Below, in pieces: positions 2,958-63,901 of a stretch of DNA of 64,000 nt (positions are counted from its first letter, which is position 1; each line of letters begins with the position of its first letter). The notes below the pieces were generated by a model. That model did not search any database, was not told the origin of the DNA, and worked only from the letters and a program-made list of their open reading frames with translations. Origin of the DNA: a virus; IMG/VR virus record IMGVR_UViG_3300022908_000003, positions 1 to 64,000 of that record, one strand, 5' to 3'. Position numbers and translations under genes: made by a program.

Positions 2958-2961
2958 GTTT

Positions 2962-3177
2962 CTAATACCTTCTAAAGTTAGTACCTTGTGGGATGCCTCT
3001 TGTGGTGTAAGTTTTACATTTAGGACAATCCATAGAGTAAAAACTTCCATCTCTTTCCGAGTTTAATTTAACTGTACTTTTATCGGAAGCATCTAACTCC
3101 CACTTACAACCGCAATTCCTACACTCCCACTCCCCAACAAATGCAAAGTTCTTGTCTGCTTCTTTAGTTATTTTCAT
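2962..3177 (-). CDS. Zinc-ribbon protein
   Basis: 71 aa. It has two Cys pairs, CRNCGCKW near residue 19 and CPKCKTY near residue 51, in the spacing of a four-Cys zinc ribbon. It starts MKITKEADKN. Role unknown; phage ribbons of this size are often transcription or nucleic-acid adaptors. Confidence 0.6.
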   Translation of the reverse strand: MKITKEADKNFAFVGEWECRNCGCKWELDASDKSTVKLNSERDGSFYSMDCPKCKTYTTRGIPQGTNFRRY

Positions 3178-3493: not shown

Positions 3494-3753
3494 TTGTAAA
3501 CCTTTACTGTGTATCTTCCAATAACCTTATAACGAGATCCAAACAGCCTTTTGGCTGCTGCTCTGGATATATCAATGTGGCTGCATCTATCCCGTACACG
3601 CAGCCTAATATGCTTTCCTGTCTTCTTATTTACAATGGTTATGGTAGATCCCAGCTTGTAGCTCTTTGGAGCAGCGCAGAAATAACCGGAATGCTTGTAA
3701 TAAGTTCCATCAGCTAAGAGAGACCCAGGTTGATAATAGTAAGTACAGACCAT
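3490..3753 (-). CDS. RlpA-like double-psi beta-barrel protein
   Basis: 87 aa. YYYQPGSLLADGTYYKHSGY, then KLGSTITIVNKKTGK, then LRVRDRC..IDISRAAAKRLFG follow the RlpA/DPBB pattern (yYg..G, lG..v.v.N..tGk, v.v.DR...iDlS.aAa..L). The acidic residue before the Ser/Ala helix (HIDIS) is kept. RlpA homologues are peptidoglycan-active lytic transglycosylases, and other DPBB folds bind sugars. No signal peptide is evident, so activity in the periplasm would need another export route. Confidence 0.65.
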   Translation of the reverse strand: MVCTYYYQPGSLLADGTYYKHSGYFCAAPKSYKLGSTITIVNKKTGKHIRLRVRDRCSHIDISRAAAKRLFGSRYKVIGRYTVKVYK

Positions 3754-3754
3754 A

Positions 3755-4060
3755 TTATAGTTTCCATATAATGAAGGAAAGCAAAGTAAAAATAGCTACG
3801 GCAATAAAAACTTCCATAACATCTTCATTTATTTTAATAGGCATTGCCCTCATTATCCCAACTCGTTTTAAGATCTTCTTTTCTTCTACCAGAGAAACGG
3901 GAACCTCAGTTTCTTCCGGTTCTTCCCATCTACGAACTATAATAGTGTTCCCATAGTGTGTTGTAGTTACAAACTCATAGCCATGATCATTATGTAACTT
4001 TTCTAGTTCTTCGCAAAAACGGTATGGTGCAACATTATTTATTGGCTTATATCTCCACAT
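3755..4060 (-). CDS. Hypothetical protein with C-terminal membrane anchor
   Basis: 101 aa. Residues about 1-75 look soluble, and the C-terminus (VFIAVAIFTLLSFIIWKL) is one membrane helix. The middle segment EVPVSLVEEKK is encoded across an element copy in the reverse orientation. No family recognised. Confidence 0.55.
   Translation of the reverse strand: MWRYKPINNVAPYRFCEELEKLHNDHGYEFVTTTHYGNTIIVRRWEEPEETEVPVSLVEEKKILKRVGIMRAMPIKINEDVMEVFIAVAIFTLLSFIIWKL
3881..3905 (+). repeat. Dispersed 26-bp element, reverse orientation
   Basis: A strong copy pointing against transcription (TTCTTCTACCAGAGAAACGG on the plus strand). It encodes VPVSLVEE on the other strand. Confidence 0.75.
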
Positions 4061-4461
4061 TATACATTACTCCTTGCACATTTCTTACACATATTAGTTC
4101 CAGCGGGTACTTCTATAAGTTGTTTTACTTTTTCGGTAGGAACTCCACATAGACATCTACTACTTAGCATACCTTCCCCATAGACTTGTGCAATATGGTA
4201 TTTATCTGTTGAATTATCTATAAATATCTGGCCTTCACGTGGACGCATCGGTAAAGGAACTGCCGTACCTAGCAACTCTGCACGTCTAAGTTCATCAGAT
4301 AATTCTAGTATCTGTCTTAGTGGTTTATTCAATCTAACAGATGCAAGATATACAATTAGTACAGCATCCATAAGTTGCTTTTGGGGTATCCCAAAATCTC
4401 TAGCTAATTTAGCAACTTTATCAGATAGTTCTAAGTCAACTTCTACATACGTTTTCATCAT
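4060..4461 (-). CDS. Hypothetical protein with C-terminal Cys cluster
   Basis: 133 aa. The N-terminal 50 residues are helical (LSDKVAKLARDFGIPQKQL) and resemble a ribbon-helix-helix or coiled segment. The C-terminal part has CLCG and CKKC, a probable zinc site. Not recognised. Confidence 0.55.
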   Translation of the reverse strand: MMKTYVEVDLELSDKVAKLARDFGIPQKQLMDAVLIVYLASVRLNKPLRQILELSDELRRAELLGTAVPLPMRPREGQIFIDNSTDKYHIAQVYGEGMLSSRCLCGVPTEKVKQLIEVPAGTNMCKKCARSNV

Positions 4462-4877
4462 AGATCCCCGTCTCTTATCTTCATTAGTATTCTACCGAGG
4501 TGGTTTTCACCTCTGCCGTTAGACATACCCCAAAACCTATCTGCCCAGGAATTAATTTCAACTATATTCTGATCCCCAGTTCTTTCTAACATTATGGTTA
4601 GATCATGGTTTTTCTTGAACTTCTGTATCACTAGGTAAGTCATTATATGTAGTTTATCAAGTTCGAAATTTTCAATAAGTTCAACAGTCTTACCTAGTTG
4701 CTTGACTTCAGATGGTGTAATATTCTGAAACAACTGCATTTCTTTTTTAGTCTTACATTTTGCTGCTTGATATGCATTTTCTACAGAATAAAATAATAGA
4801 CCCTTATATTTTATTGGATTGGTTAACACAAAGAAATTAGATAAGAACTTGTACTTGCCTATAAATGGGCCTATCAT
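4458..4877 (-). CDS. NADAR (YbiA-like) domain protein
   Basis: 139 aa, full length for the family. FLSNFF at residues 12-17, YSVENAYQAAKC near residue 30, and WADRFWGMSNGRGENHLGRILM near the end are the NADAR signatures (lSNf, sEh.yqa.K, W..vMWG...G.N.LG..LM). Characterised NADAR enzymes hydrolyse N-glycosidic bonds of ribosylated metabolites or remove ADP-ribose from guanine. A role in nucleotide repair or counter-defence is plausible here but not shown. Confidence 0.85.
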   Translation of the reverse strand: MIGPFIGKYKFLSNFFVLTNPIKYKGLLFYSVENAYQAAKCKTKKEMQLFQNITPSEVKQLGKTVELIENFELDKLHIMTYLVIQKFKKNHDLTIMLERTGDQNIVEINSWADRFWGMSNGRGENHLGRILMKIRDGDL

Positions 4878-7151
4878 TTAAACCACTCCCTCTGTCGTCT
4901 TAACTTGAAGGCGACTAAGTTTCTTTCGAGGCAGTAACTTACGTTCTTCAGGATAGTACAAAGGAACTCCTTTAACGCTACGATCTGGTTCATTTTCTGC
5001 ATTTACTACTCTTTCTCCGATAGTAGGAGGTGCTATCTTCTTTACTATTCTTATTTTCTTCTGTCTATCTCTAAACTGTACCTTAACCATTCCGTTTATT
5101 CTTCGTAAACCAGATGTAGCCCATAGCTTAGAAATATCTGAAGAAGGATAGTATTTCATAATAGGCGCGCCTCTCCCAGCAGGATTTTCAAATTTCCTAA
5201 TGAAGATAACACCTAATTCTTGGAGATCCTCTAACTGATCTCTTAGTGTAGACTTAGCTAATGAACAATCATCAGATAGTTCCTGTAATGTTTGTCCAGG
5301 ACTTTCCATAAGAGAGGCTATAGCTTCTAAATTAAACCCTACACATGTGTCTATTGCAACTCTTGAGAGAATACGATACTCAGTTAATCCAATAGACGGA
5401 GGGCTATTAATTAGAGAAAGCCCCATCAGGAGTTTCGTTAATTCTTTTGCAACTCTTGTGCCTACTTCTTCTTGTGGTCTGTATAGCAGTTTTCTTTCAC
5501 CTTTGAAATCTCTCTCTACCGTAGCTCTAAGTTTTGCTACGATCTGAGCTAAAGCAGATATTCTATCAATATCACTATCACTTATCTCAGGTACATCTTC
5601 TTCAAAGTTTACATTAACATCAAGGAAAGACCTAGCTATATCAATTAACTCTTGTCGAATAACTGCACCTTTACCTACAGATTTTATAGCTGCGCGTATA
5701 GGGTCACTATGATCTAAGTTGCATCCCTTTATGACATGCATCATAAGGAAACGTTCTCCAACTACAGAATTTCTTTCAGCATATATTGCTGGAGTAACTC
5801 CAGTAACTACATTGAAATGTGCTCTATATCTTCGAGTAATTCCATTGCCAAAAGGCTTCTCTACTTCCCCGTCATAAGCCCCTCTAAGTGTACCATATAT
5901 TTCTTCTTTACTTATTCTTGGCATTGATAGAATTTCTGTGAAATCCTTCAGAACAAGAGTTTTACCGTCTAGTGTTGGCAGAATACTTGGATCATGCCCC
6001 CCACCTTGCACAAACCCGCTCACAAGGGCATGAGGGGTCATTGTAGACATGAAATGGCAAGTAAGACAAGCTGATATACTTGTAAGCAAAGCGGTTTTAG
6101 CTGCCCCCGGTGGAGCAACAATATGCACCCATAACGGGTCATCTGGAATATTTGTGGATAACACTACTGCATAAATTACACGTAATGCATCTTCCAGGTC
6201 CGGGGTCATTTTAAGGAACTTGCGATAAACCGATAATACAGTTTTGAAGCTAGGCCGGTTTCCAGATTTAATTGGATTATTTTTAATCTGCTCTTGTTTT
6301 GCCTGGGCTTTTTCTTGATCTGATGAATACCTTGCAATAAGGGAAGAGAATTCTTTAAAATCTGGTTTTTCTTTGGTAATGTATTCACGTATGTCATAAC
6401 CATCCTGAGTTGTGGCTGGCCATACCAAGTGCAATACCTGTGCAGCACGATCTTTGATTTTTTCATAAACTCTTGCTTTACCTTTAGTTCCTGGACTATC
6501 ATTATCATAACACAGTACAACTTTCTTACCTGCTAGATATTCTGTCCATGCATCTTGCCAAGTTCCAGCACCAGGAACACCTAAAACAATTCCGGTTTCC
6601 GTTTCTCTGGTGAGAAAATCTCTTAAACAAATTTCATCCCATCTTCCCTCGCACAAGTAAACAGTATCGCTGTCATTATCTGATAAAGTTTCTAGACCAA
6701 ACAGTGAAACGCTAATAGAGGGTAAACCCTTTACTTGATCATTTAAATGGTATGTTAAAAGATTAATTAAAGCTCCTGCGGTATTCCTTACAGGAAGTAT
6801 ATATCTCCAACCATCATGCACTATTCCTTCTTTACGTAGAAGTTTTACATTCATGCCTCTATTGTCTGCAAGCTTCTTCATTGCTTCTGCTTGCAAACCT
6901 CTAGTTCTTATCTTCTCTTGGTACCATTCGTTAATAAATGTGTATGTGTTGCCTTTCTTAAAACATACTTTACATTCCCACATTGCTACAGTGGTTGTAT
7001 TAAAGTTAATGTAGAGTTTATTCCTTGCACCACAGAACAAGCATTCCCCATAGGCTTCATTACCTACTACTCGTTCTTCGTGGTAATCAAAGCCAAGAGA
7101 ACAGAAAGTTCTAAGCTTTAGCGGAACATCATTCTTTGATCTTGGCATCAA
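4878..7151 (-). CDS. Primase-helicase-like protein: zinc finger, TOPRIM, AAA-type ATPase
   Basis: 757 aa. An N-terminal zinc finger has CLFC and CKVC near residues 38 and 60. A TOPRIM domain follows at about 160-250, with YLCEGRWDE and VVLCYDNDSPGTKGK holding the acidic residues. An ATPase has APPGAAKT near residue 347 and VVGERFLMM, an arginine-finger-like sensor, near 455. A winged-helix-like part at about 610-660 includes LAKSTLRDQLEDLQELGVI. This domain order suggests it primes and unwinds at the phage fork. It differs from T7 gp4, whose helicase is RecA-type. Confidence 0.75.
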   Translation of the reverse strand: MMPRSKNDVPLKLRTFCSLGFDYHEERVVGNEAYGECLFCGARNKLYINFNTTTVAMWECKVCFKKGNTYTFINEWYQEKIRTRGLQAEAMKKLADNRGMNVKLLRKEGIVHDGWRYILPVRNTAGALINLLTYHLNDQVKGLPSISVSLFGLETLSDNDSDTVYLCEGRWDEICLRDFLTRETETGIVLGVPGAGTWQDAWTEYLAGKKVVLCYDNDSPGTKGKARVYEKIKDRAAQVLHLVWPATTQDGYDIREYITKEKPDFKEFSSLIARYSSDQEKAQAKQEQIKNNPIKSGNRPSFKTVLSVYRKFLKMTPDLEDALRVIYAVVLSTNIPDDPLWVHIVAPPGAAKTALLTSISACLTCHFMSTMTPHALVSGFVQGGGHDPSILPTLDGKTLVLKDFTEILSMPRISKEEIYGTLRGAYDGEVEKPFGNGITRRYRAHFNVVTGVTPAIYAERNSVVGERFLMMHVIKGCNLDHSDPIRAAIKSVGKGAVIRQELIDIARSFLDVNVNFEEDVPEISDSDIDRISALAQIVAKLRATVERDFKGERKLLYRPQEEVGTRVAKELTKLLMGLSLINSPPSIGLTEYRILSRVAIDTCVGFNLEAIASLMESPGQTLQELSDDCSLAKSTLRDQLEDLQELGVIFIRKFENPAGRGAPIMKYYPSSDISKLWATSGLRRINGMVKVQFRDRQKKIRIVKKIAPPTIGERVVNAENEPDRSVKGVPLYYPEERKLLPRKKLSRLQVKTTEGVV
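6594..6619 (-). repeat. Dispersed 26-bp element
   Basis: Gene-strand orientation inside the primase gene. It encodes FLTRETET between the TOPRIM strands. Confidence 0.65.
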
Positions 7152-32205: not shown

Positions 32206-35200
32206 TTACCTCTTCCGTCTGATACCAAAGTTTTTAGCAATCTGCTGTCCTTGTGTTACTTTAGAAGATCTCATACCTCTTACATCAGGAGTGTTTACTA
32301 TCTGAGTAAATTTAACATTAGTTACATGTTGAATTGGGGTTTCCTCGCCTTCTCTGGTAGAAGATTTCCCGTAGCCCATTTTGCTTAGTGGAGTTACTGT
32401 ACCTGGTCTATCTGGAACTAGGAACTCAGGTTCGCCTCTTTCTCCTACAATAATTGGAGTAAGACCTGAATAATGCCCTCCATCGCCAAAGGTAGGAATA
32501 GGCCCATCAAATCCTGCTCCGAAAGGATCTCCATTAGATAATGGGCTTGCACTTCCTCCACTACCCCCCATTATCCCGCCAATTAATCCCCCTAACCAGG
32601 ACATACCGCCAGAGAAACCGGAACCACTGCCAATTTGTCTAGTTAGATATTGCATTAACTGTGACTGTAAATAATCTTGAGCCATCTTTGCAATAGTCTG
32701 TTTGAAGTTATTTGCAATTGTTCCGAATAACCTTCCAAATACATTTTGCAGATTATTCCCCATTCCATGTAGTTTGTCGTTAGTAATGTCTATCTGGTGT
32801 TGTATGTCTTTTATTCGTTGAGTGTAAGGATCTTGACCTGAAGCACCTTGACCATACTTATATCTATAAGATGCCTCTCCCATTTGTGCTTGTTCTAGTT
32901 GTTGTTTTAGATTATAAAGGTCTGTTTGGGCTTGTCCTTTAGCTTGTGGGTTAGGATTAAATGCATTAGTTATTCCCTCCATTATTCCACTACTAGTTCC
33001 TTGAGCTAGTCCTTGAAACATTTTTGCAAGTTCTAAGGTTGTGTTTGCCCTATCTATATTTTTCTTCCAGAAATCTTCCATGGTTTTTTCATCCATGTCA
33101 GTAGGAAGAATATAGTCCATAATGCGATTGCCATCTTTATCAAGAGTTACTTTTAGCTCTCTAAATCCGTTTAACCATTGATGGAAAGGATCTGTAGACC
33201 TTGCATCTAATAGTTGTTTCTGCATTCCATTGACATTAGAAATTAAAGCATCTTTAGCTCTTAGCGCATCTGCTTTATTTATAGAAGAAACTATGGAATT
33301 CTCATAATCCTTAATCATGAGATCTCCTTCAGTTCCCCAATACCTTCTAACGTTAGTTATTGCAGTCTTATTCTTTGTTTCCCATTCGAATACTGCATTT
33401 TCCGTGTCAGTATAAAGACCTGATAGAGAATGCTCAATACCTGATAGCTGTTCAGTTATGTCTCTTGTCTGAGATTGCATAAAGTCTTTACCAACTGCTT
33501 TGGCTTCATCAAGACCTTGCTTTCTAACTTTATTCTGTGTATCTACAAACTTAACAAAATCTCCAATATTATTGTAGTCAGAGCCAAATAGCTTTGCTAT
33601 CTGATCATTGTTAGTTTTATTCCATTGGTCTACGGCTGATTGACCCGCGTTGGAATTCTCTGGTGAGAATTTCCTATTCATTTTTTCTTGTAACTGCTTA
33701 CTTTGAAGGTCAATATTTCTATTTTGCTCATCAAGCCAATTTCTTGTATTATTTTGATCTGAAATATTACCAGAAGCTATTATTTGATCAAATGATGATT
33801 TGTACTGAGGATCATTTCTTGATATATGAAGTTTATTTATCAAGGCTTCTATTGCAATACGTGCGGCATCAGCTTGAGTTTTTACAGGAGCAAGGCTTTC
33901 GGATGCTTTTGTAGCCCATGAATTAGTTAGAGAATTTAGTTCCTCTAATGCCATGGTTTGCCGTGTAGCTTCTATTCTTGCAGATCTTTCGGCTTCTGTT
34001 AGAAGATCCCAGGTATCCGCACCTCCAGCAGCTTGTACAGCCGCTCTTGCTACTTCGTCTCCTGCATTCTTCTGAGCAAATGCAAGATCATGCATTGCCT
34101 TAGTATTTGCAATAACTTCTTTACGTCGATCAACAGAAGCCATTTTAGAAAGCATGTCTTGCTTTTGGCTATCAGACATTTCTTTCCATTCAGACAAACC
34201 TCCTTGAAGTTGCCCTATAGCTTGTCTTTTTAGTAAAGGAAGTGCAGAAATGTCATTTTCATCATTAAGCTTCTTGATAGATAATGCAACTCTATGAGCA
34301 CTTTCGGCAAGATCAGCTTGTTTAGCTTTATCTAGAAGAATATTCTTCTGCGAATTGCTAATTCCGTATAAGTCGCCACCTTCTTGTAGTTTTGCTAGTT
34401 CCTGATTTAAATGTACATGTCTTGTTTCAGTATCTACTTCTACGTTCTTTAGAAATATTACTTTATTAAGACCTTGTACTTCATTATCATATCTTTTTAC
34501 TAAAGCTTTTGCAGCGGCTTCAGCTGCTTTTTCTGCTTTCTTCTTTGCGTCGGCTTCTGCTTTAAGCTTATCTAACATGGCTTGATCTATGCCATGTGTT
34601 GTAGGCGGCATATTTGGAATTGCGCCGTCTCCATAAAGCTTTGCTTTAGCATAATCAGGATCAAAGTAACTCTGGAAATTATTTAATCCAAAGTGGTTAG
34701 TACCATACTGATCAAACCTATCTCCTTCTCTTCCTATCTCTGCTACATGCCCATAACTCTCATACTTACCTGTTTTCTTGTTATACTCATGCATTGCCAT
34801 AGTATGAGAAAACAAAGCATCACCAGGTTTTAGTACAGTTTGTCCTGGTATAAAAGGCTGTAGAACTCCAGCAGCTTGCATTGCTTTTTCTGTAGCAAAT
34901 GCAGAACCTTTGAATAAGTGATCAAAGATATGAGTACTTTCTTGTACCGTTACTCTGAATAACTCTTGGCAATGATGGTGATAATCTAGTGCTGTTTTAT
35001 CCATCTGCTTTCTTGCAGCAGTTGCAGCAATAGCACCTCCTAGATCCCCAGGAGTTGTTACATTTACTGTACCCGAACCAGCTTGATTATTTGAAGTAAG
35101 AGCATGTAAATTAGACGCTTGTTTAGCATAATCTGATTTCAGTTTATGCAGATCGAATATAGCTTGATCTAGATTTTTCTGTACTTCTGCTCTATTAGTA

Positions 35201-37902
35201 TCATCTGGAAGTCCTTTAGCTCTTAGGTTATCTGATTGAGTAAGCTGTTGATAGTAAGTTTGCTTTGCAGTTTCTCTGCCGGAGATGGTTTGGGCAATTT
35301 TGCCCATCTCAACTTCTATAGCTCCGCGAGTACTCTGCGCAGAAACTTCTTTCTGCATATTAACAAAGTTCTGTGCAGACTTTGCAGCTTGATCCTGAGC
35401 CGTCACCATTTCATCATAGCTATCTTTTAGCTTAGATAATTCGTATATTAAGCCCACAACAGCTAATGCCACAAGAGCTATAGGCCCGGCAGTTGCGCCA
35501 AGTGTTGCTAATCTTGCACCCCAAGTTAATGAAGCACCTGTAGAAGCTACCTGTGCTCCAGTTAAGGTAGTAATTCCTGTAGCAAGCTTTTTTACAATTT
35601 CTGTAGTGATAAGTAAACCGGCTCTAAGATCAATTGGAACCTTTAATCCAATAAGAATACCAGTTAGCTTATTTAGGATAGTTAAACCCCCAAGTACAGA
35701 AATCATATTCTGTATAGGTAGTGGCAATTTTTGGAATAAATCCATAAGGTTAGCAATGTATTTTGAAAAAGCTTCAATGCGAGGTAGCCAAGTCTCAAAT
35801 ACCTTTAATGCTCTTTCACCTACGGGTAGGAAATCCGCCTCTATACTGTTTACTAACCTTGCAAGTTGATTTTGAAAAGTCTTAGATTGCCTTTCAAATC
35901 CAATATCTACAGGATTTGCTACTTGCCCTTGTCTCATTTGCTCCAGGAAACGATAAGTGCTTGTATAGTCATCGGCACCTTTGTTCATAAGAACTGTAGC
36001 ACCGAGACCGCCTCTCTGAGCCTGGAGAAGTTTATTTATTGTATCAGTGTTACCACCTGAAACTGCTTTAATATCTCTAAGTACATTGTACAAGCCTCTT
36101 GCTGCAAGTCCTGCACCAGAGAAATCTTTTATTAGATCAATTCCCATTGATTTAGCAATAGGTTGAAGTAATGCAAGTTCTTTTCTAACTTCAGGAATAG
36201 GGTTTGCGATATGTGTAAGAATGCCACGAATTTGGGTGTCTGATTGCCCAATACTAAATCTTTGCTGTGTTAGTGCAGATAGTGCAGCTTGTACATCAGT
36301 TAATTTTACTCCATAAGCAGCAGCGGCCGCAGTTGCTTGACCTGTGCCAAGTACCCACTGTTCCATTTTAGCATTGCCACGTGCAGCAGCTTGATCAAGA
36401 ACACCCATTGTTGCATGGGCTTCTTCGCCTTTTAGATGGAAGACGTGCATGGTAGAAGCTAGTGCATTTGCTGTACTATCTACTTTAGATTGAGTTGAGA
36501 CAGCTTCTTTAGCAGCATCATTAAGTACATTGTATGTAAAAGCTGCTTGCTCATTTGCTGAAGCAGTTCTATCAATGTGGTTTCGAATACGCATATAGCC
36601 ATTTGATATATCATCAAAAACTGCACCAGTATCTTTACCAACTTTAATAGTCTGCTTTCTCATATCTTCAAGAGCAGCATCGGTCATTACTGCATTATTT
36701 GCAACAGCTGCGGTATTTGCCTGGAAGTGGCTAAATAAACCTGCTGAACCTGCTTCTATTGCAGTTACTACAGCAGCACCAGTACCTCCCATTCCTGCAA
36801 CTGCTCCAAGTGCAGAGAGTTGAGATCCTCTTGCTACCTGTGCAGCTTTTTCAGCTTCTACTCTTTGAGCCATTGCAGCAGCAGAAGTAGCTTGCGCTTC
36901 TTTCGCAGCAGCTACAATTAATGCATCAGCTTCTTTTTCAGATTGTACCCTAATTCTTGCAGTTTCTACAGCTTGTGCTCTTGCTTGACTATTAAATAAG
37001 GCATCGGCTTCTGCTCTCTCAGCATCTATAGTTCTTTCTACTTGTAGAAGTTCTGATGCAGCAGCTTTCCATTCAGAGCTATAAGCTTCATACTGAGTTA
37101 GTCTTTTCCTCAGATAAGCCATGTAAAGTTCTTGACTAATTAAGCCTTGATCGTATTCAAAACGAACTGTATTAAATATAGCAGCTTGCTTTTCTTTTTC
37201 TGCTGTGGTTCTTGCTTCTACTTCTGCCCTTGTTAATTGGATTATTTTCTCTGAAGCAGCTTGTTGCTGTTGCGCACTAGCTTGCGGAGAAGTTATAGTC
37301 TTCATAGCATTCTGCATTTGAAGATCTCTTATAACTTGTCCTGCATTTGCTCCGGCGGCTATTCTTCCAGCAGCAGCTAAATTTAATGCGGTTTGCTGCG
37401 TTGCAACTGCTGCGGCTCTAGCTGAAGTAATTTCAGCATTGGCCTTTTGTTCCGCGGAAATCCGTTCTCTCTGGTAAACATTCCATCTAGCTGAAGCATC
37501 TCTTATTAAAGCTTTATCATTTGCGTCTATCTCCGCTTGTAGAGACTTCTCAAGAGATGCTAACTCCGTTGCAGCTGCTTTCCACTCTGCTGTATATGAA
37601 GCGTAGGAAGACATTCTAGACTTCAAGAAAGCTTTATAATCTGCTGCGCTAGTTTGACCTGTCTTGTATTCGAATTTTGCTAAATTTGCTGCACCTCTTT
37701 CGAGTTCCTTATAGGTAGCTTCTAGCTTTTTACCCCCATTGGCAGTTCTAGTAAAGCTTTCTTCTATAGTTTTTGCAGCTTTATCAGCAGTGTTTGCAGT
37801 TTCGTTAATCCGTTGTTCAGCGCGAGATAGACGGCTTTCAAGTGCAGCCGTATCCGCGCTTATGACTGCCTTTAGTTGAGCAATTGTAACTTGATCTGCC
37901 AT
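32206..37902 (-). CDS. Tape measure protein with embedded peptidase-like domain
   Basis: 1898 aa. The N-terminal 340 residues are coiled coil with two similar units (FEYKTGQTSAADYKAFL / FEYDQGLISQELYMAYL). A TP901-type core lies at about 390-700 (MTDAALEDMRKQTIKVGKDT, YGVKLTDVQAALSAL). Hydrophobic segments follow at about 720-830. At about 970-1080, HCQELFRVTVQ, LKPGDALFSHT and YGHVAEIG resemble a CHAP/NlpC fold with Cys and His. The C-terminus has a Gly-rich stretch and GERGEPEFLVP. It sets tail length and may help in cell-wall passage. Confidence 0.9.
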   Translation of the reverse strand: MADQVTIAQLKAVISADTAALESRLSRAEQRINETANTADKAAKTIEESFTRTANGGKKLEATYKELERGAANLAKFEYKTGQTSAADYKAFLKSRMSSYASYTAEWKAAATELASLEKSLQAEIDANDKALIRDASARWNVYQRERISAEQKANAEITSARAAAVATQQTALNLAAAGRIAAGANAGQVIRDLQMQNAMKTITSPQASAQQQQAASEKIIQLTRAEVEARTTAEKEKQAAIFNTVRFEYDQGLISQELYMAYLRKRLTQYEAYSSEWKAAASELLQVERTIDAERAEADALFNSQARAQAVETARIRVQSEKEADALIVAAAKEAQATSAAAMAQRVEAEKAAQVARGSQLSALGAVAGMGGTGAAVVTAIEAGSAGLFSHFQANTAAVANNAVMTDAALEDMRKQTIKVGKDTGAVFDDISNGYMRIRNHIDRTASANEQAAFTYNVLNDAAKEAVSTQSKVDSTANALASTMHVFHLKGEEAHATMGVLDQAAARGNAKMEQWVLGTGQATAAAAAYGVKLTDVQAALSALTQQRFSIGQSDTQIRGILTHIANPIPEVRKELALLQPIAKSMGIDLIKDFSGAGLAARGLYNVLRDIKAVSGGNTDTINKLLQAQRGGLGATVLMNKGADDYTSTYRFLEQMRQGQVANPVDIGFERQSKTFQNQLARLVNSIEADFLPVGERALKVFETWLPRIEAFSKYIANLMDLFQKLPLPIQNMISVLGGLTILNKLTGILIGLKVPIDLRAGLLITTEIVKKLATGITTLTGAQVASTGASLTWGARLATLGATAGPIALVALAVVGLIYELSKLKDSYDEMVTAQDQAAKSAQNFVNMQKEVSAQSTRGAIEVEMGKIAQTISGRETAKQTYYQQLTQSDNLRAKGLPDDTNRAEVQKNLDQAIFDLHKLKSDYAKQASNLHALTSNNQAGSGTVNVTTPGDLGGAIAATAARKQMDKTALDYHHHCQELFRVTVQESTHIFDHLFKGSAFATEKAMQAAGVLQPFIPGQTVLKPGDALFSHTMAMHEYNKKTGKYESYGHVAEIGREGDRFDQYGTNHFGLNNFQSYFDPDYAKAKLYGDGAIPNMPPTTHGIDQAMLDKLKAEADAKKKAEKAAEAAAKALVKRYDNEVQGLNKVIFLKNVEVDTETRHVHLNQELAKLQEGGDLYGISNSQKNILLDKAKQADLAESAHRVALSIKKLNDENDISALPLLKRQAIGQLQGGLSEWKEMSDSQKQDMLSKMASVDRRKEVIANTKAMHDLAFAQKNAGDEVARAAVQAAGGADTWDLLTEAERSARIEATRQTMALEELNSLTNSWATKASESLAPVKTQADAARIAIEALINKLHISRNDPQYKSSFDQIIASGNISDQNNTRNWLDEQNRNIDLQSKQLQEKMNRKFSPENSNAGQSAVDQWNKTNNDQIAKLFGSDYNNIGDFVKFVDTQNKVRKQGLDEAKAVGKDFMQSQTRDITEQLSGIEHSLSGLYTDTENAVFEWETKNKTAITNVRRYWGTEGDLMIKDYENSIVSSINKADALRAKDALISNVNGMQKQLLDARSTDPFHQWLNGFRELKVTLDKDGNRIMDYILPTDMDEKTMEDFWKKNIDRANTTLELAKMFQGLAQGTSSGIMEGITNAFNPNPQAKGQAQTDLYNLKQQLEQAQMGEASYRYKYGQGASGQDPYTQRIKDIQHQIDITNDKLHGMGNNLQNVFGRLFGTIANNFKQTIAKMAQDYLQSQLMQYLTRQIGSGSGFSGGMSWLGGLIGGIMGGSGGSASPLSNGDPFGAGFDGPIPTFGDGGHYSGLTPIIVGERGEPEFLVPDRPGTVTPLSKMGYGKSSTREGEETPIQHVTNVKFTQIVNTPDVRGMRSSKVTQGQQIAKNFGIRRKR
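32338..32365 (-). repeat. Dispersed 26-bp element
   Basis: Gene-strand copy giving SSTREGEETP near the tape measure C-terminus. Confidence 0.75.
32606..32626 (+). repeat. Dispersed 26-bp element, reverse, short
   Basis: GCCAGAGAAACCGGAACC on the plus strand. Its complement encodes SGSGFSGG in the Gly-rich part of the tape measure. Confidence 0.45.
33647..33674 (-). repeat. Dispersed 26-bp element, weak copy
   Basis: Gene-strand copy giving FSPENSN. Only the ACCAGAGAA half is kept. Confidence 0.4.
37457..37480 (-). repeat. Dispersed 26-bp element
   Basis: Gene-strand copy read as VYQRERIS, the third frame, in the coiled-coil start of the tape measure. Confidence 0.65.
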
Positions 37903-37919: not shown

Positions 37920-38605
37920 CTAATCTTCGTAGTTTCTACGTTGTTTCTTTGGTTTTGATAAGTGCTTTTGTACTAGGTTGTCTGCCTTCTCGTATACTAT
38001 TGCCCATTCTCTCCATGATAAAGCTTCAGGTTCCTTTAGTAATTCAAAGACAGAACAATTTAATATCTTAGCCGCTCTTATTGTACGGTACTGGTGCGGG
38101 AGACTACCGTTAGATCCTCCACTAATGAAGAATTGGGCAATTTCCCGCTCAATGCCTTTGGGGGGTTCTTATGCTCATATACAGCAGAAATTACAGCATA
38201 AATGATTTCAGCTTGTACGTCGGCTTTCTTTACTCCTTCAGGAGTTAGAGGGATTGGGTCTCCATCATCATCACAAAGATCCCACTTAGCAACAAGCTTG
38301 CACATATTTTCTATAGAAGCTGCAAGAGGGCGACCAGAGAAAGTATCACTATTTCTAAGATCAATAGACGCCTCTTCAAATCCAGGCGTCATATGATATT
38401 TTCTGTAATAGACTTCCTCAAGGAATGGTTCATCTTCTCGCTTTGGTCTGCTTGCCGTTGATCCATCTACTAGTTCAAACTCTTCCATGATGATAGACCC
38501 ATCTAGATTTCGTTCATCACTATCTAGATAAACTTTAATAGGGCCAACAAGCTTATCTCTTAGATCTTTTGTACTTGCTTTCTTCTTTTTGGTCGTGGCT
38601 GCCAT
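37920..38605 (-). CDS. Tail assembly chaperone, frameshift product (GT)
   Basis: 228 aa if ribosomes slip -1 on C CCC CCA at 38165-38159. The first 147 or so residues are shared with the G protein. The shifted frame continues as KGIEREIAQFFISGG, RTIRAAKILNCSVFELL, WAIVYEKADNLVQK and ends at 37920, 18 nt before the tape measure ATG. This is the classic G/GT layout of long-tailed phages. The extension recruits the tape measure and tail tube during assembly. Confidence 0.8.
38078..38605 (-). CDS. Tail assembly chaperone, short product (G)
   Basis: 175 aa. A basic N-terminus (MAATTKKKKASTKDLRDKL) is followed by a beta/alpha middle and a helix (ADVQAEIIYAVISAVYEH) just before the slippery run. 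AAAGGAG lies 11 nt before the ATG. By analogy with lambda gpG it coats the tape measure during tail assembly. Confidence 0.75.
   Translation of the reverse strand: MAATTKKKKASTKDLRDKLVGPIKVYLDSDERNLDGSIIMEEFELVDGSTASRPKREDEPFLEEVYYRKYHMTPGFEEASIDLRNSDTFSGRPLAASIENMCKLVAKWDLCDDDGDPIPLTPEGVKKADVQAEIIYAVISAVYEHKNPPKALSGKLPNSSLVEDLTVVSRTSTVQ
38159..38165 (-). promoter_or_regulatory. -1 ribosomal slippery site
   Basis: Minus-strand heptamer C CCC CCA followed by AAGG. The zero frame reads AAC CCC CCA AAG and the -1 frame CCC CCC AAA GGC, so P- and A-site tRNAs can re-pair at all but one position. Confidence 0.85.
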
Positions 38606-38639: not shown

Positions 38640-38668
38640 GGTTTTCCGTCTTCTCTGGTAGAAGATTT
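38640..38668 (-). repeat. Dispersed 26-bp element, intergenic
   Basis: A strong copy covering the stop of the tail tube gene and the leader of the chaperone gene, 34 nt before its ATG. Confidence 0.8.
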
Positions 38669-41117
38669 ATAGAGCAGCTTGTGCAGTAATTGTTTCCATT
38701 ACTAAGTCGCCGTTTGTTTCTTCATCAGCAGCATAGAAATCATACATTCCTGCATAGAGATCATCGTCGTCTGTTAGATCCTGGTTTGATACATAACAGG
38801 CTAATGTAGTTTTGAAGGAATTATAGTAAGTGATCATTGTCACTGTTTCAATAGAGGAACCGGTTGCTACAAACTGTAAGTATCCTAGTGTAGACTGCTC
38901 CAGTGAAGCTAGGAACTTATCACTTTCAGAACCTACAGCTACAGTAATCTTTCCTCCGATATCTGCTTTCTTTTCTAGAATACCTCCTATTGTAGTATCT
39001 GCACTATTAATGAATAGCTTTGACTTGTACTTACCCTTTACCGAGAACTCAAGTGCTCTTGCTTGAAGGAGCTTACTTGTGCCTAGATCGCTAAATAGCG
39101 TGTTAGAGTAGAATATGTCAAAGTCTGTCATATTCATCAAGTTAGCTGGAACCAATGTGGGAGATGCAGTCAATGTAATAGGGTAATCAGGATATGCCCC
39201 AAAACCATTTATTGTATAGTCTGCTGTATTCTCATTGATAGTAATAGTCATATCGGTTGCAGTACCGAATGCCATTCTATCATTAGACCCCTGATTGTTA
39301 CCATACTCAAATGTCATTGTCTGCGGAGTGTCTACATTTCTGCTGTTCATCTTGTAGACACGTTTCTTTGAAAGCGTTCCAGGAGTTGTTAGTACTGGAG
39401 TAGCTGTGATAAGCATTGCAGCCCAATAAGGCATTACAGAATACCCAAGCTGTCCTGAAATGCTCCACTCAGCCCATCGCTTACCTCTTTGCTGCCCTAT
39501 TGCAGATTTTGTGCCATCATCCTGCGCAGTCTTTACGTTGTTCTGTCTCTTCGGAGGTGTAAAGGTTCCGTTTTTAATCCACTTATCGGATGCTACAACG
39601 GTACCCTGGGTAGAAGTGTCTTCAAGTCCAAATTGAAAACCTCTAAGTGTCTTTGATTTAAGCATTGTATTTCCATTCCTCAATATTATCGCAGAAACTA
39701 TGTTAGAAGCTGCGCCTTCTACCGTGCCATTGAAACCAGATACATAGTATTTGTATAGAGCATTAAATTCTATATTCTTATCTGTGTACGTTTCCGTATT
39801 CCACGGAACTGGATTTTTATTGATCTTATAAAAAACTCCAGGATTAATTGGATTTTTCTTATTCATCGAAAGGTAATGGTCAATTACTTCATCTTCGGAA
39901 AGCAATCGACCATACCAAGCAAAGTTTGATAAAAAGCCTGTGAAATATCCCGCACTATATCCAAGTAACGATTGCCCTATGTATATTCCTGGATTTTCTG
40001 CAAAGTCTCTAATAGATCCAAAACCTACTGGAGTTGTATATGTCACCAGACCGTTACAATAAACAACTATAGTTTGTCCAACCGGATCTGAAACTATTGC
40101 AATATGGTTCCAAGTGTCAGCAACCATACCTGTTACAATATCATCGTATATTACTCCAAATGCAAACATTTGTAGAATAGTTGAGCCATTCATTTTAAGC
40201 CCAAACCCTACACTCTCTATGCCTGCTGCTATCAAACCTCCTGCTGTAAAAAACCCACCACCAGAGCTACCAGACGGAGTGTTAATCCAAAATTCTAAAG
40301 TTATTGCAGAGTGCGTAGGTGTAAGTCCTGTACCAGAGAAATAGGAAACCCCATCAAAATAAACAGCACTTGGTTGGTTATCCGGTCCCTTTGATCTTCT
40401 TATAGTAGATCCAGTGGATACTAGGTTTGAATTAGAAATACTGTCTTTTGCATTTCCGAATGTATCATCTAATTTCCAGTAGTTTATTAAACCAAGAGTT
40501 TCTTCTACTTCCGTAGTATATGTGACATTTTTTCTATAGATATTAAAAGAGTAATTTAGATTACTACCAGAAGTTAGAGATAGGTTAGTTGGTCTTGTTA
40601 TATTTAAATCTATAAAATCAACATTCTCTTCAGCTTCTATGTCAGGCTCGTTTGGAGTTATAAGCAGAGGAAAAAAAGCAGAAGAAGGAATTGCTTGTAC
40701 AGATCTACTAGGACTAGACCAACTTATTGTTAAACCTTCTACAGAAATATTACTACTCTGAAAATAATAAACTTCTATGTTATACTTCTTGTTTGCAGTT
40801 GCAGAAAATGTTTTACCTGCTGAGAGGAATTCATCTCCATAATCAGGGCCACCAGAAGTAAAACTATCAAATATAATTTGACCATCTATTACTAGCTTTA
40901 CACCATCATGCCCTGCAAAGTATAAATTGTAGACTTCAGTAAAAGCAAAAGTAATAGTGCCTGTCCACTTTACACTATAGCTAAAAGTAGAAAGCCCTGA
41001 ACCTACTGGATTTGTTGCAAAATCTAAGTTAAGATTTGGATCTACTCTCGATAGCACATATTGCCCATCGGCTAATGTAGTTCCATTATAGTAGTTACCT
41101 AGAAGTCCATTAGCCAA
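38667..41117 (-). CDS. Major tail tube protein fused to N-terminal PA14 and LamG domains
   Basis: 816 aa from TTG 41117. Residues 1-140 are PA14-like (LLGNYYNGTTL, WTGTITFAFTEVYNLYFAG, GVKLVIDGQIIFD). Residues about 205-430 are LamG-like (LINYWKLDDTFGNAKDS, ITLEFWINTPSG, WNHIAIVSDP). Residues 485-816 look like a tube protein (ASDKWIKNGTFTPPKRQNN, AEWSISGQLGYSVMPYWAAML). An ATG at 39665 with GAGGA 11 nt upstream could give the 332-aa tube part alone. Position before the chaperones confirms the tube role. PA14 and LamG bind glycans. Confidence 0.75.
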   Translation of the reverse strand: MANGLLGNYYNGTTLADGQYVLSRVDPNLNLDFATNPVGSGLSTFSYSVKWTGTITFAFTEVYNLYFAGHDGVKLVIDGQIIFDSFTSGGPDYGDEFLSAGKTFSATANKKYNIEVYYFQSSNISVEGLTISWSSPSRSVQAIPSSAFFPLLITPNEPDIEAEENVDFIDLNITRPTNLSLTSGSNLNYSFNIYRKNVTYTTEVEETLGLINYWKLDDTFGNAKDSISNSNLVSTGSTIRRSKGPDNQPSAVYFDGVSYFSGTGLTPTHSAITLEFWINTPSGSSGGGFFTAGGLIAAGIESVGFGLKMNGSTILQMFAFGVIYDDIVTGMVADTWNHIAIVSDPVGQTIVVYCNGLVTYTTPVGFGSIRDFAENPGIYIGQSLLGYSAGYFTGFLSNFAWYGRLLSEDEVIDHYLSMNKKNPINPGVFYKINKNPVPWNTETYTDKNIEFNALYKYYVSGFNGTVEGAASNIVSAIILRNGNTMLKSKTLRGFQFGLEDTSTQGTVVASDKWIKNGTFTPPKRQNNVKTAQDDGTKSAIGQQRGKRWAEWSISGQLGYSVMPYWAAMLITATPVLTTPGTLSKKRVYKMNSRNVDTPQTMTFEYGNNQGSNDRMAFGTATDMTITINENTADYTINGFGAYPDYPITLTASPTLVPANLMNMTDFDIFYSNTLFSDLGTSKLLQARALEFSVKGKYKSKLFINSADTTIGGILEKKADIGGKITVAVGSESDKFLASLEQSTLGYLQFVATGSSIETVTMITYYNSFKTTLACYVSNQDLTDDDDLYAGMYDFYAADEETNGDLVMETITAQAAL
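40330..40353 (+). repeat. Dispersed 26-bp element, reverse
   Basis: ACCAGAGAAATAGGAAACCC on the plus strand. Its complement encodes YFSGTG in the LamG domain. Confidence 0.5.
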
Positions 41118-41122
41118 AATGG

Positions 41123-41150
41123 GGTTCCCCGTTCTCTCTGGTAGAAGAAT
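41123..41150 (-). repeat. Dispersed 26-bp element, intergenic
   Basis: Near-consensus. Its GGAACC end is exactly 5 nt before the TTG start of the tail tube gene, in place of a normal ribosome-binding site. Confidence 0.9.
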
Positions 41151-41155
41151 ACAAA

Positions 41156-41644
41156 CTATTCTTGGTAGTATTCCATTTCGTAAATACCGCCAAGATTTAT
41201 ATAGTCTGTGCCTTGTTGATTACTTGAGTATTTTATAAATCTGTTGTTTATACATGACATTATTCTTATATTTATTGTGCTATCGTCTGGATCTGTCCAC
41301 AACTCTTGACACTTAGGTCTTCCTGTATTAATATCAGTAATACCAGGCCAATGAAATGTTTCTTCAATTAAATTAGCTATAGGAGATAGTAGGGAGAAAT
41401 CTTCTCCGGCCATTACTGCTTTAATTTGTAGTAGCCATCTACCTTTCATCCTTGAACCAAAGTTACTGTTCATATTCTGTTGTGCAACAGTAACCACCAT
41501 TGCTGCTGGGGTTTGGTCTACTTTGTTACCACCTGAGATAATCTCTGAATAGAAATCAGCATTATTTATAGGCTCTTGTGACCATTTAGGATCTGTAGTA
41601 AGTTTCGTGTAGATGTATTTGGCTAACGTTGTAAGTTCGTTCAT
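41156..41644 (-). CDS. Tail terminator / completion protein candidate
   Basis: 162 aa. MNELTTLAKYIYTKLTTDPK at the start, AAMVVTVAQQNM and WLLQIKAVMAG in the middle. Size and place just before the tail tube gene fit the tail terminator (gpU-like) role. Assignment rests on position more than motif. Confidence 0.55.
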   Translation of the reverse strand: MNELTTLAKYIYTKLTTDPKWSQEPINNADFYSEIISGGNKVDQTPAAMVVTVAQQNMNSNFGSRMKGRWLLQIKAVMAGEDFSLLSPIANLIEETFHWPGITDINTGRPKCQELWTDPDDSTINIRIMSCINNRFIKYSSNQQGTDYINLGGIYEMEYYQE

Positions 41645-42153
41645 TATTTGAACTCGCTGAATGTAGAAAATTTAGCTTTCACAGATAAACCTTTATAGGC
41701 AACTCTTATTGCATTGCTTAGATAGGCTCTGTGGTTCCAGACAGCAGGAGTTAAGAAAGCTTGCGCGCCTCTATTTGGTGTTCCGTATTCATTAGGTTCT
41801 CCATGCTCTGCTCCTACTACTACCCATACTTCCATTGGATTTTCTGGAGCAATCGACGGAAAGAAATTATATCTCATTCCCGAAGTCATCCTAATACCTT
41901 TTGGAGTAGACCCTGCTGCTTTAGCTAAATCATATTTTTCCTGTGACTTAGATCTTGCTTCATCATAATCACTATGATCTTCACTAACTACGTATATGCT
42001 TTCTTTTAGATACTCTGTGTCAACAGGAGCAAGAGATTTTGCTTCGTCTCTTATACTTATTGCAGTCTCTAAGATAGCTGTCTTTGCAGCTGCATTAACC
42101 ATTGCAGTTATTGTTGTAAAACCACTTGTATCTAATCTAACTCTTTTTAACAT
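41644..42153 (-). CDS. HK97 gp10-like neck/tail protein
   Basis: 169 aa. AISIRDEAKSLAPVDTEYLKE near 32 and GEPNEYGTPNRGAQAFLTPA near 125 match the HK97-gp10 family (A..LAPVDTG.L..SI ... YG....PFL.PA). It links the connector to the tail terminator. Confidence 0.8.
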   Translation of the reverse strand: MLKRVRLDTSGFTTITAMVNAAAKTAILETAISIRDEAKSLAPVDTEYLKESIYVVSEDHSDYDEARSKSQEKYDLAKAAGSTPKGIRMTSGMRYNFFPSIAPENPMEVWVVVGAEHGEPNEYGTPNRGAQAFLTPAVWNHRAYLSNAIRVAYKGLSVKAKFSTFSEFK

Positions 42154-43602: not shown

Positions 43603-44715
43603 TTAATACGTTAGTGCAGGAGCTACATAAGTATTACCACCCATGTACCCAACAACCCCGTTAGTTCTCTCTTTGATGCCCATACCATATTCCCTTTCCC
43701 ATGCCTTAGCATAAAGAGGATGGCTTTCATCTTCAAACGAAACAAAGAGTTCCCCTGCATTTGTTGCAGCAGGGCCTCCATTTGTTCCCATCGGATTTGC
43801 TGCACGAATACGCCTTGCAATAGGAGCAGGGTTTCCCTTCATAAAGGCAAATACGTACCCGGCAGGCATCCATGGCTTAGTCCATACCGCTGCTCCCCGA
43901 AACCAACCTATCTGCCTATTGTAAATATCAATTTCATCAAGAACACCCTGCCCATATTCCTGATTAGCTGATTTAATTACAGTAGCATAAGTGAATGCCT
44001 TGAAATCTGCAAGAGCACTAATTGAAGTTTCATCTGAGCTAGAGATGAAAATAACTGCACTACCTCTGTTATAGTGCTCAATGACATTCTCTATTACAGC
44101 CCTTAACCAAGTATTCGTTACTCCATTAATTGCCATATAGTGAGTATGGGTAGTAGGGTCAAAACGTCGTCCATTCTGTCCTGGCGGTATTGGCAGACCA
44201 TCTGCATTTACCAAAGCCCTTACAGGGATTGGGAAAGCTTCTTGATGGTCTATTAGAGGATCTGTAGTAGAGTAATTAACTCCGGTAAATAAAGTCTTCT
44301 GTATATTATACTGCAAGAGCAGTACATCTCCAATAAGAACTTGATCTACTTGACCGGCAAGATCCGAAGGGCTATGGTTCTGCATGTACCTACGGTTCCA
44401 TGCAATAGCTGCTTGGTAATCTTTTAGTGGAAGTCCTATAATAGCTCCAGGCTTGCCCTTCTGAGCCTGCGGCGTTCCCATTTCATCCATTTCCTGAAAA
44501 CGAAAATTAGATGTAGTAGAACCATACATTGTAAGACGTTCTGTGGTATCTGTAACAAAATCCTTCAACTGATCTTGTACAAGAGCATTATAAGCATTTA
44601 GAGTTACTGCAACAGCATCCCATACTTTCTGCTCTCCAAAATCTATGATAGATTGAAAGTTTGCACCTTTAATAATATCATAAGAAGTATTTGTGCCAAA
44701 TGTATTTAGTGGCAT
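43603..44715 (-). CDS. Major capsid protein, HK97 fold
   Basis: 370 aa. An N-terminal helix (NFQSIIDFGEQKVWDAVAV) and a loop (RFQEMDEMGTPQAQKG) precede the spine-helix region (DLAGQVDQVLIGDVLLLQYN). The P-domain follows (WLRAVIENVIEHYNR, VIFISSSDETSI, PWMPAGYVFAFMKG). No prohead-protease-type delta domain is evident, and a separate scaffold gene lies upstream. The ATG is 5 nt after an intergenic element. Confidence 0.85.
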   Translation of the reverse strand: MPLNTFGTNTSYDIIKGANFQSIIDFGEQKVWDAVAVTLNAYNALVQDQLKDFVTDTTERLTMYGSTTSNFRFQEMDEMGTPQAQKGKPGAIIGLPLKDYQAAIAWNRRYMQNHSPSDLAGQVDQVLIGDVLLLQYNIQKTLFTGVNYSTTDPLIDHQEAFPIPVRALVNADGLPIPPGQNGRRFDPTTHTHYMAINGVTNTWLRAVIENVIEHYNRGSAVIFISSSDETSISALADFKAFTYATVIKSANQEYGQGVLDEIDIYNRQIGWFRGAAVWTKPWMPAGYVFAFMKGNPAPIARRIRAANPMGTNGGPAATNAGELFVSFEDESHPLYAKAWEREYGMGIKERTNGVVGYMGGNTYVAPALTY

Positions 44716-51270: not shown

Positions 51271-51299
51271 AGTTCCCCGTTTTCTCTGGTAGAAGAATA
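51271..51299 (-). repeat. Dispersed 26-bp element, intergenic
   Basis: Near-consensus copy in the short gap before terS, 27 nt before its ATG. A separate ribosome-binding site lies in between. Confidence 0.85.
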
Positions 51300-51910: not shown

Positions 51911-53974
51911 TTAATAGGTTAGTTTTGTCTTCTTTAATGTATTAAATATCATTTCAGAAGAAGTGTTAAACCTATAGTGTGTTCTTACCGGTATTGATAC
52001 ACTAGGATTTAGCGCAGAGTTTATTGCAGATACTATAGCAGGGTTTACATCAATAGCAGCTTTTGCAGTGTTTTGGTGTATTCCATCCCCACTTGCCCAT
52101 GTATCTTGCCCTCCCGCGGTTACTCCGTCTGTAACATAGGAAGGAAGATCTACTGCAATTGTGTTGCTATCTGCTGCCTGTACAACTCCTTGCTTAACCT
52201 GTGTCCATTTAAAGTCACCGCCAATAGGCTGTAAGAAAATTATCTTTGCTAGTGGTGCAGCGGCTCTTAGAGCAGGGATAAATGCAGCTACAGAAGCAAC
52301 TACATTTGCATCAGATGTACCGTGAAGCCAATCATTTGTGCCTTCATTTACTACAATATAGTCTGGTGCAGGTGAGAATGCCCCACTTACTAACCTGCTT
52401 ACTCCTGCCCAATGTTTATTCCATGCACTATTTGTGTCATCTCCAGGAACAAATAGTGCTGGAACATTATAAGCAGCTAACCACCTAAACCCTTGCCCTC
52501 CCATTGGAATTAATCCAACTTCACAACCTAATGCTTTTGCAACCGCTTCTACATGGTTGTAATAAGGGCTTGGGATACTTGTTCCTTCTATGCCGTCTGC
52601 TGGATTTAATGCAATACTATCGGAATACCATAAAAGTCTTTTTGATAGTAGAGCATAAGCTCCTATAGTTTCTCCGGTATCTATGTTTATACCGGTTATT
52701 TTTATTATAGAAGGCGGTGGGTTAGCTGTCCATAGATCGGCTGTACCACCTCCAAATTGGGATCTCCAATATATTCTTACAGTGTGAGCAGAGTTCCAAA
52801 GTCCTGAACTCATAAGAACTATAGAAGTAGTTGCATTTGTTATGTTTGTGCTAACGAATGCTCTTTCGTCTACGCTATATATTATTGTAGAAGATCCTGC
52901 CGATGCTTGTAAGCCACTAAGATCAAGTAGTAAAGTGCAGTTACTACCGGAGAATGTAAACTTAGAGTGCCAATCAATGTCATTACTTTCTACACTAGTA
53001 GTACTTGTTATATGTGTAGCGTAAGGAGAAAGACCTGCTTGAAAGTTTGCATTACTAATTGCAACAGATAGGTTTGTGTTATTTTCAGTATAGATCTGAG
53101 TAAAACCTGTACCTGTATCTGCTGCTGCAATTCCGCATTGACCTGCGGACTGTATTACAGAGTTTGTACCTGTGGTTATTGTAGATGATACTCTTCCTGT
53201 ACTGTTTCCTGAGACAGTTAAAGGAATATGTAAGCCAGCAGAAACTCTATATACTGTATATGTTATAGTAGTTGGGTTTGTTCCAGAGGCACTTGATAAG
53301 CATTCAATTACATTTGTTGAAGACGCAGCCCAATTTGTACTTGAAACACTTGTCTCAACTCCTTGCAAACAGTGAAATACCTGTACTTGGAAAGTTGTAC
53401 TACCATTCCATATTCCCACTATCTTTACATAGTCTGTATTATCTACATATCTAAGAAAAGCTAGAGTAGGTCTATATGAAGTTGCAGGTAAAGCAGCAGT
53501 TTTTACATATTGACTGTTATTTAGTACATTTTCTGAGCTAGGTCTAAGTAACGGTGCATCTCTCTGGCGAACTATGCTTTCACCATTAGAGTGATTATTT
53601 ACTGTATTTGTAGTAAATGTAATAGATGTGCCAGCTATTGACTGTATTTGCAGTGCTTCTGCATTTGCGGTTCCTGCACCTACTATATCTACTTCTCCAA
53701 CAACTCTAGAAGTTGCTGAAGTATACACTATTACATTTGTTCCAGCAGTAGTAGCTCCATTTACAGTTGTACTGCCTATAGTTGCTACTGTTTTTGTAGA
53801 AACTATAGCTCCAGAAGTTGTAGTATACTGCCCCCAGGTGTCAATCCATCCATTACCTACTGCTCCCGTACCTGAAACCACATGATCTATAATTTTACTA
53901 GCATTTGTAGTTACTGTAGGAACAAAAAGAAGTAGAAATAACAGGTTTGCTTTTACAGCTAATTTTAGTTTCAT
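51911..53974 (-). CDS. Secreted SGNH/GDSL hydrolase
   Basis: 687 aa. Residues 1-25 (MKLKLAVKANLLFLLLFVP) form a Sec signal peptide. Residues about 30-430 are Ser/Thr-rich beta structure. The hydrolase lies at about 440-650: LLWYSDSIALN holds the nucleophile Ser, MGGQGF block II, VVNEGTNDW block III, and SGDGIHQN the Asp-x-x-His pair. Such esterases remove acetyl groups from surface glycans and are common on phage tail spikes. A cleavable signal on a phage structural protein would be odd, so secretion from the infected cell is possible. Confidence 0.65.
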   Translation of the reverse strand: MKLKLAVKANLLFLLLFVPTVTTNASKIIDHVVSGTGAVGNGWIDTWGQYTTTSGAIVSTKTVATIGSTTVNGATTAGTNVIVYTSATSRVVGEVDIVGAGTANAEALQIQSIAGTSITFTTNTVNNHSNGESIVRQRDAPLLRPSSENVLNNSQYVKTAALPATSYRPTLAFLRYVDNTDYVKIVGIWNGSTTFQVQVFHCLQGVETSVSSTNWAASSTNVIECLSSASGTNPTTITYTVYRVSAGLHIPLTVSGNSTGRVSSTITTGTNSVIQSAGQCGIAAADTGTGFTQIYTENNTNLSVAISNANFQAGLSPYATHITSTTSVESNDIDWHSKFTFSGSNCTLLLDLSGLQASAGSSTIIYSVDERAFVSTNITNATTSIVLMSSGLWNSAHTVRIYWRSQFGGGTADLWTANPPPSIIKITGINIDTGETIGAYALLSKRLLWYSDSIALNPADGIEGTSIPSPYYNHVEAVAKALGCEVGLIPMGGQGFRWLAAYNVPALFVPGDDTNSAWNKHWAGVSRLVSGAFSPAPDYIVVNEGTNDWLHGTSDANVVASVAAFIPALRAAAPLAKIIFLQPIGGDFKWTQVKQGVVQAADSNTIAVDLPSYVTDGVTAGGQDTWASGDGIHQNTAKAAIDVNPAIVSAINSALNPSVSIPVRTHYRFNTSSEMIFNTLKKTKLTY

Positions 53975-55753: not shown

Positions 55754-55863
55754 TCGGGAGGGAAGGGTTCGAACCTTCATGTAGAGAGTATAGTAAACTG
55801 ATCAGAGATCTATAGTGTCTCAGCCAAGTGCTCTTGGTGCATTGCCGATTATGCTACCTCCCG
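55754..55863 (-). tRNA. tRNA-like gene with abnormal anticodon region
   Basis: Acceptor CGGGAGG/CCTCCCG, D-arm GCAT/ATGC with GG in the loop, and T-arm GAAGG-TTCGAAC-CCTTC are perfect. The region between D- and T-arms is about 59 nt, with CCAAG/CTTGG closing only a 4-nt loop plus a second imperfect hairpin. The isotype cannot be read. A defective tRNA, an unusual class II tRNA or a mimic are options. No CCA is encoded. Confidence 0.5.
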
Positions 55864-55884: not shown

Positions 55885-55963
55885 TTGGGTGGAAAGGTCT
55901 CGAACCTTTACCGACTACGCGGAAAACCCGTCACGCCGTTCTACCTGTTAAACTACACACCCA
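55885..55963 (-). tRNA. tRNA-like gene, isotype uncertain (possibly Lys-UUU)
   Basis: Acceptor TGGGTG/CACCCA with a bulge, D-arm GTTT/GAAC with AGGT in the loop, and T-arm AAAGG-TTCGAGA-CCTTT are good. The anticodon arm does not form a clean 5-bp stem with a 7-nt loop. One weak fold gives a loop GTTTTCC with anticodon UUU. No CCA is encoded. 22 nt from the other tRNA-like gene. Confidence 0.5.
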
Positions 55964-63872: not shown

Positions 63873-63901
63873 GGTTTCCGTTATTCTCTGGTAGAAGAAA
63901 T
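63873..63901 (-). repeat. Dispersed 26-bp element, intergenic
   Basis: Strong copy 5 nt before ATG 63867 (gene-strand end CGGAAACC). Confidence 0.85.

Follow-up and report, generated by a model that had tools for sequence, protein, structure and literature searches.

How does a virus come to carry a large adhesin in the same reading frame as its putative tail tube protein, and what would such a gene make? The question is raised by an 816-codon open frame on the minus strand of the window (the 64,000-nucleotide stretch analysed here, part of a 68,053-base virus record), which runs from a TTG at 41117 to a stop codon at 38667. The earlier note had read it as 480 residues of PA14- and LamG-like sequence ahead of a 332-residue part in one frame. 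This is confirmed: 484 N-terminal residues precede 332 others, and the Pfam PA14 and Laminin_G_3 profiles both match above their cut-offs. The gene and its signals are laid out as follows (L092 and L138 are loci of two related uncultured phages, described below).

41127 to 41146, minus strand: leader of the long frame, TTCTACCAGAGA plus a GGGGA Shine-Dalgarno, the same as that of the major capsid gene
38667 to 41117, minus strand: long open reading frame, PA14 + FN3 (with LamG apparently nested) + putative tail-tube region, 816 aa, TTG start
40701 to 41114, minus strand: PA14 domain, aa 2-139 (Pfam PF07691, 1.2e-14; solved PA14 6qe7, 2.4e-29)
40497 to 40631, minus strand: FN3-like domain, first part, about aa 163-207 (match to the L138 FN3 protein once LamG is excised)
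39870 to 40496, minus strand: LamG/concanavalin-A-like domain, about aa 208-416, apparently inside FN3 (Pfam PF13385)
39690 to 39869, minus strand: FN3-like domain, second part, about aa 417-476, ending ..EGAASNIVSA (homology to L092 5200-5982)
39677 to 39681, minus strand: GAGGA, Shine-Dalgarno of the internal start (-6.8 kcal/mol with the anti-Shine-Dalgarno)
38667 to 39665, minus strand: putative tail-tube region, 332 aa, with its own ATG at 39665 (stand-alone gene in L092 and L138, about 50% identity; GC3 step)

The PA14 profile scores 54.8 bits against a curated Pfam cut-off of 24. The solved domain that it resembles (6qe7) belongs to RsgI3, a bacterial anti-sigma factor and not a phage protein, and the two differ at one motif, the window reading GHDGVKL where 6qe7 has TDDGVRL, with His-Asp instead of Asp-Asp. 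We take this position to be the usual calcium-binding DcisD motif, which matters for PA14 domains of the calcium/glycan-binding type; the PA14 of the window is without the first Asp, and the Asp-Asp motif is thus not found there. The sole significant match to the N-terminal part, a PA14 on a gut contig, was rejected as a tail relative since the reading frames around it look like a bacterial glycosidase locus. Further along, Laminin_G_3 (PF13385) matches aa 268-411 at 1.7e-13, with 51.4 bits against a curated cut-off of 27.6; the outer LamG boundaries (about aa 208-416) were placed by eye.

The identity of the 332-residue part comes from its neighbours.

43603 to 44715, minus strand: major capsid protein (tblastn to annotated capsid proteins, 24% identity, 2e-6)
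41644 to 42153, minus strand: tail completion/Neck1 protein (phrog_5, 2e-8)
41156 to 41644, minus strand: tail terminator, by position and gene order
38078 to 38605, minus strand: tail assembly chaperone, G-like, 175 aa, adjoining the tube downstream, with a -1 frameshift site
37920 to 38168, minus strand: T-like extension, in the -1 frame after CCCAAAG, with a similar extension in both relatives
32206 to 37902, minus strand: tape measure protein, 1898 aa (Pfam PhageMin_Tail, 1.2e-12)

The succession of Neck1, terminator, fused gene, frameshifting chaperone and tape measure is the same in three lineages, and on this ground the 332-residue part is likely to be the tail tube. No better tube candidate is found among the other genes between capsid and tape measure. 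The tube-like domain of the earlier note thus stands as a position in the gene order, while sequence comparison and structure prediction did not confirm it: there is no match in Pfam, PHROG, NCBIfam or the PDB, AlphaFold gave a pLDDT of 30 both for the tube alone and together with its two homologues, and hhalign found no match to R5C/RDJL1-type tube proteins or between the two halves of the tube. Phage matches returned by tblastn were dismissed as chance. As for the neighbours, the Neck1 gene also has an HK97-gp10_like match, which lies under the cut-off, and the terminator-position gene has no family match. A slippery -1 frameshift is a hallmark of the G/GT tail assembly gene pair, according to Xu et al. 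(2004) as cited in PMC6316719. In both relatives, a slippery CCCAAAG or CCCTTTG and a similar -1 extension come before the tape measure (L092 7070-7845; L123 5610-6143), and a -1 frameshift joining the G-like chaperone to the T-like extension is probably kept in all three lineages.

Three other features of the window were observed. The middle of the tape measure holds a Cys/His-containing stretch that resembles, by eye, an NlpC/P60- or CHAP-type peptidase; a similar stretch occurs in L123, and that of the window has no Pfam match. Near the terminase, on the minus strand at 51911-53974, a 687-aa protein has a GDSL lipase/esterase domain (3.2e-9) and is possibly a surface-polymer esterase. Two Rfam tRNA matches, also on the minus strand, lie at 55754-55863 (41.1 bits, 110 nt) and 55886-55962 (30.9 bits); both are over the gathering score and absent from the ARAGORN output.

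Short-pattern scans of IMG/VR recovered relatives of the tube from two independent viruses. The first is present in three records (L091-L093), with about 49% identity, and the second in two (L123 and L138), with about 51%. GTDB genome scans yielded no relative, and 50,697 phage records held no protein like the fusion. In both relatives the tube is a stand-alone gene.

L092: tail terminator 3657-4163; adhesin reading frames 4169-5197 (342 aa) and 5200-5982 (260 aa); tube 6001-6996
L138: tail terminator 3828-4307; FN3 protein 1978-3813; tube 932-1933

These loci have the gene order of the window, with an FN3-bearing protein immediately before the tube. They differ from it in that adhesin and tube are separate and in that the adhesin domains are others, Pfam finding neither PA14 nor LamG in those of L092 and L138. 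The L138 protein between terminator and tube is FN3-rich (611 aa; fn3 match 4.8e-14), and its tube-proximal FN3 is related to that of L092 (1e-7). The second adhesin frame of L092 opens with RQLGLIVSA-type repeats and contains FN3; it starts at a TTG right behind the stop codon of the first, and the tube follows in the same frame, one TAG and 18 bases on. Stop-codon readthrough was considered as a conserved device and set aside, as the FN3 frame and the tube are in frame with each other in L092 and, by coordinates, out of frame in L138.

The FN3-like domain of the window itself has no Pfam match. Once LamG is excised, however, the window sequence matches the FN3 protein that precedes the tube in L138 (E 7e-4, in a tiny set), and its ..EGAASNIVSA is the homologue of the ..ESGPSNIASA that closes L092 5200-5982, so that SNIVSA stands against SNIASA just before the tube. 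Because of these resemblances, LamG appears to have been inserted within an FN3 domain in the window, and FN3 appears to be the constant neighbour of the tube across the window and its relatives.

As the genes are separate in both relatives, fusion is most simply taken to be the derived state, in which the former start of the tube gene survives. The starting state would be a separate adhesin gene (PA14, then FN3 with LamG inserted) directly before the tube gene; the loss of about nine bases, stop codon included, would have joined the two in frame, and the ribosome-binding site and ATG of the tube gene would have been retained within the fused frame. The DNA alignment with L092 fits such an event: the window has a 9-nt in-frame gap covering the L092 TAG stop, and homology flanks this gap on both sides, running through the ribosome-binding site and the ATG. 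The fusion is seen in one genome only, and resting as it does on a single metagenome contig, it might be a sequencing or assembly artefact hiding two genes that are truly separate. This is very improbable, as the gap is clean and set in homologous sequence, and as no stop interrupts the 484 codons upstream. Codon composition also changes along the gene. GC3 for tube and adhesin is 0.34 and 0.22 in the window, 0.36 and 0.21-0.25 in L092, and 0.75 and 0.58 in L138, and in each of the three lineages the GC3 of the tube is closer to that of the capsid gene than the adhesin GC3 is. Because the best-fitting break, the statistical optimum, falls at codon 378 rather than 484, this difference is a broad contrast and no sharp marker of the junction.

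What would the retained start do? ATG 39665 is codon 485 of the long frame. It had been pointed out earlier as a possible internal start with GAGGA upstream, and the comparisons bear this out: the Shine-Dalgarno is above chance, and the homologous tube start in L092 coincides exactly (MLIAKTMRGFQIGLE against MLKSKTLRGFQFGLE). The L138 tube starts four residues upstream of the homologous codon (MATN-MLIGKKLRGFQFGLE). The GAGGA has a spacer of 11 nt, and a second GGA one of 6 nt. Among 236 other in-frame internal ATGs, two (0.8%) have a Shine-Dalgarno of equal strength, and of the 62 gene starts used, 79% have a site that is no stronger. As 4.8% of the synonymous ways to code the linker would be equally strong, selection on the internal site, apart from ancestry, is weakly indicated; a recent fusion could have left this Shine-Dalgarno behind as a remnant. 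The RNA structure there is not notably better than in shuffles, and sigma-70 promoter-like matches that could serve the short form are no more frequent than by chance. A protease might instead cut the fused protein into adhesin and tube after synthesis, which would restore the two-protein state of the relatives; given the internal start such a cut is unnecessary, and we consider it highly unlikely.

The start of the long product looks real, because its leader is common to the major capsid gene: it has a GGGGA site at -5.7 kcal/mol and the leader CTACCAGAGAGAACGGGGAACC, at equal spacing in both genes. The leader includes a dispersed element. When up to one mismatch is allowed, TTCTACCAGAGA has 15 matches in the window where 0.47 are expected, among them 38652-38663, 41135-41146, 51283-51294 and 63885-63896; it also stands before the capsid gene near 44740, and it is often followed by AACGGGAACC. 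In L092 the element is spelled TTCCCAGAGA, with 5 copies in 20 kb against 0.04 expected, and in each of the three lineages a version of it comes straight after the stop codon of the tube gene. The domains, the gene order, the fusion, the conserved start and both ribosome-binding sites are supported by sequence.

Such a leader would also suit a gene that makes the long product only, every tube subunit carrying the 484-residue adhesin and ATG 39665 being an ancestral leftover. Lambda and the p2-like 936 phages do decorate every subunit, with a far smaller domain (PMC6669499, PMC8718954). Against this, the internal Shine-Dalgarno compares well with the gene starts used and is not weaker than that of the L092 tube (-6.8 against -5.6). 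Moreover, TTG generally initiates less well than ATG. Exclusive synthesis of the long product is therefore rather unlikely, and two products, the short one more abundant, are favoured. A minority of long subunits would agree with the TTG start set against an ATG with a stronger Shine-Dalgarno, and with the step in codon composition; even so, the leader that the long form has in common with the major capsid gene speaks against a strict minority, and this form need not be rare.

We infer from this the existence of both products, their ratio, their co-assembly and their binding, and the following model can be proposed. Translation from TTG 41117 would yield a long subunit of 816 residues, and translation from ATG 39665 a plain tube subunit of 332. 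The short product would build most of the shaft, and the long ones would co-assemble with it through their tube part, displaying PA14, FN3 and LamG outside; this display would give multivalent weak binding to cell-surface polymers. That nested starts yield two products in this way, mostly plain subunits with adhesin-bearing ones co-assembled on the shaft, all arising from a gene fusion, is a reading whose chances we put somewhat above even. The position of the adhesin is a difficulty. In T5 and lambda the N-termini of the tube protein form contacts between rings, and the YSD1 tube minus its N-loop stays monomeric (PMC8718954), so a large N-terminal domain might hinder tube assembly. The long product could then sit off the shaft, in a single place such as one end ring, or as a separate fibre beside a tube of short subunits only. 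N-termini near the ring interfaces would agree with this, and the adhesin is a separate protein in the relatives, so that covalent decoration of the shaft is not required; yet a covalent fusion most simply places the adhesin on the tube, and an off-shaft location is improbable. The shaft model thus remains the preferred one. The earlier interpretation is supported in part, namely for the two domains PA14 and LamG, for the position of the tube and for an internal start. To that note are added the FN3 domain, divided by LamG and adjoining the tube, and the leader that the long start has in common with the major capsid gene.

Tubes of two subunit lengths are known elsewhere. In SPP1, gp17.1* carries an FN3 extension, is a non-essential minority form (3:1), and is made by a +1 frameshift at the C-terminus (PMC6316719, PMC8718954). 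As predicted for the window, one gene region gives two tube proteins that share the tube part, with FN3 in the extra part; in the window, however, the extension is N-terminal, would depend on two starts, and adds PA14 and LamG. TpeX of the 936-group lactococcal phages puts a carbohydrate-binding module on a portion of the tail-tube subunits, and binding to host cells was shown with GFP fusions (PMC6669499). It too is a tube protein extended by a carbohydrate-binding-type domain, a likeness drawn from its description, and for the window such binding would be expected by inference; the TpeX extension is C-terminal, frameshift-made and a different binding module, whereas that of the window is N-terminal. 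Lambda gpV, T5 pb6 and YSD1_22 likewise have an added Ig-type domain outside the tube, as one small C-terminal domain per subunit and with no second product (PMC8718954). The window gene shares with dual-length decorated tubes an extension with Ig/FN3 or carbohydrate-binding-type domains, which in its case are PA14, LamG and FN3. Because this extension is N-terminal and in the same open frame, and neither C-terminal nor reached by a programmed frameshift, we do not place the gene in the SPP1 gp17.1*/TpeX class; it would function similarly but come about by a different genetic route.

Decorated shafts are therefore already known, the described cases compared here being C-terminal and made via a frameshift or present on every subunit, and no report joining PA14 or LamG with a tail-tube fusion was found in the literature searched. 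That the ratio of plain to adhesin-bearing subunits is set by two nested in-frame starts, and that N-terminal PA14/FN3/LamG decoration of a shaft arose from gene fusion, is put forward tentatively, with odds slightly short of even. If true, mixed tubes could be reached by a second genetic route, with an N-terminal extension that has three adhesin-type folds and is under start-codon control. The FN3 adhesins encoded separately in the relatives would then be expected to act as decoration proteins that bind the tube, and the persistence of the unfused state in these viruses suggests that unannotated FN3 proteins beside tube genes may be shaft decorations.
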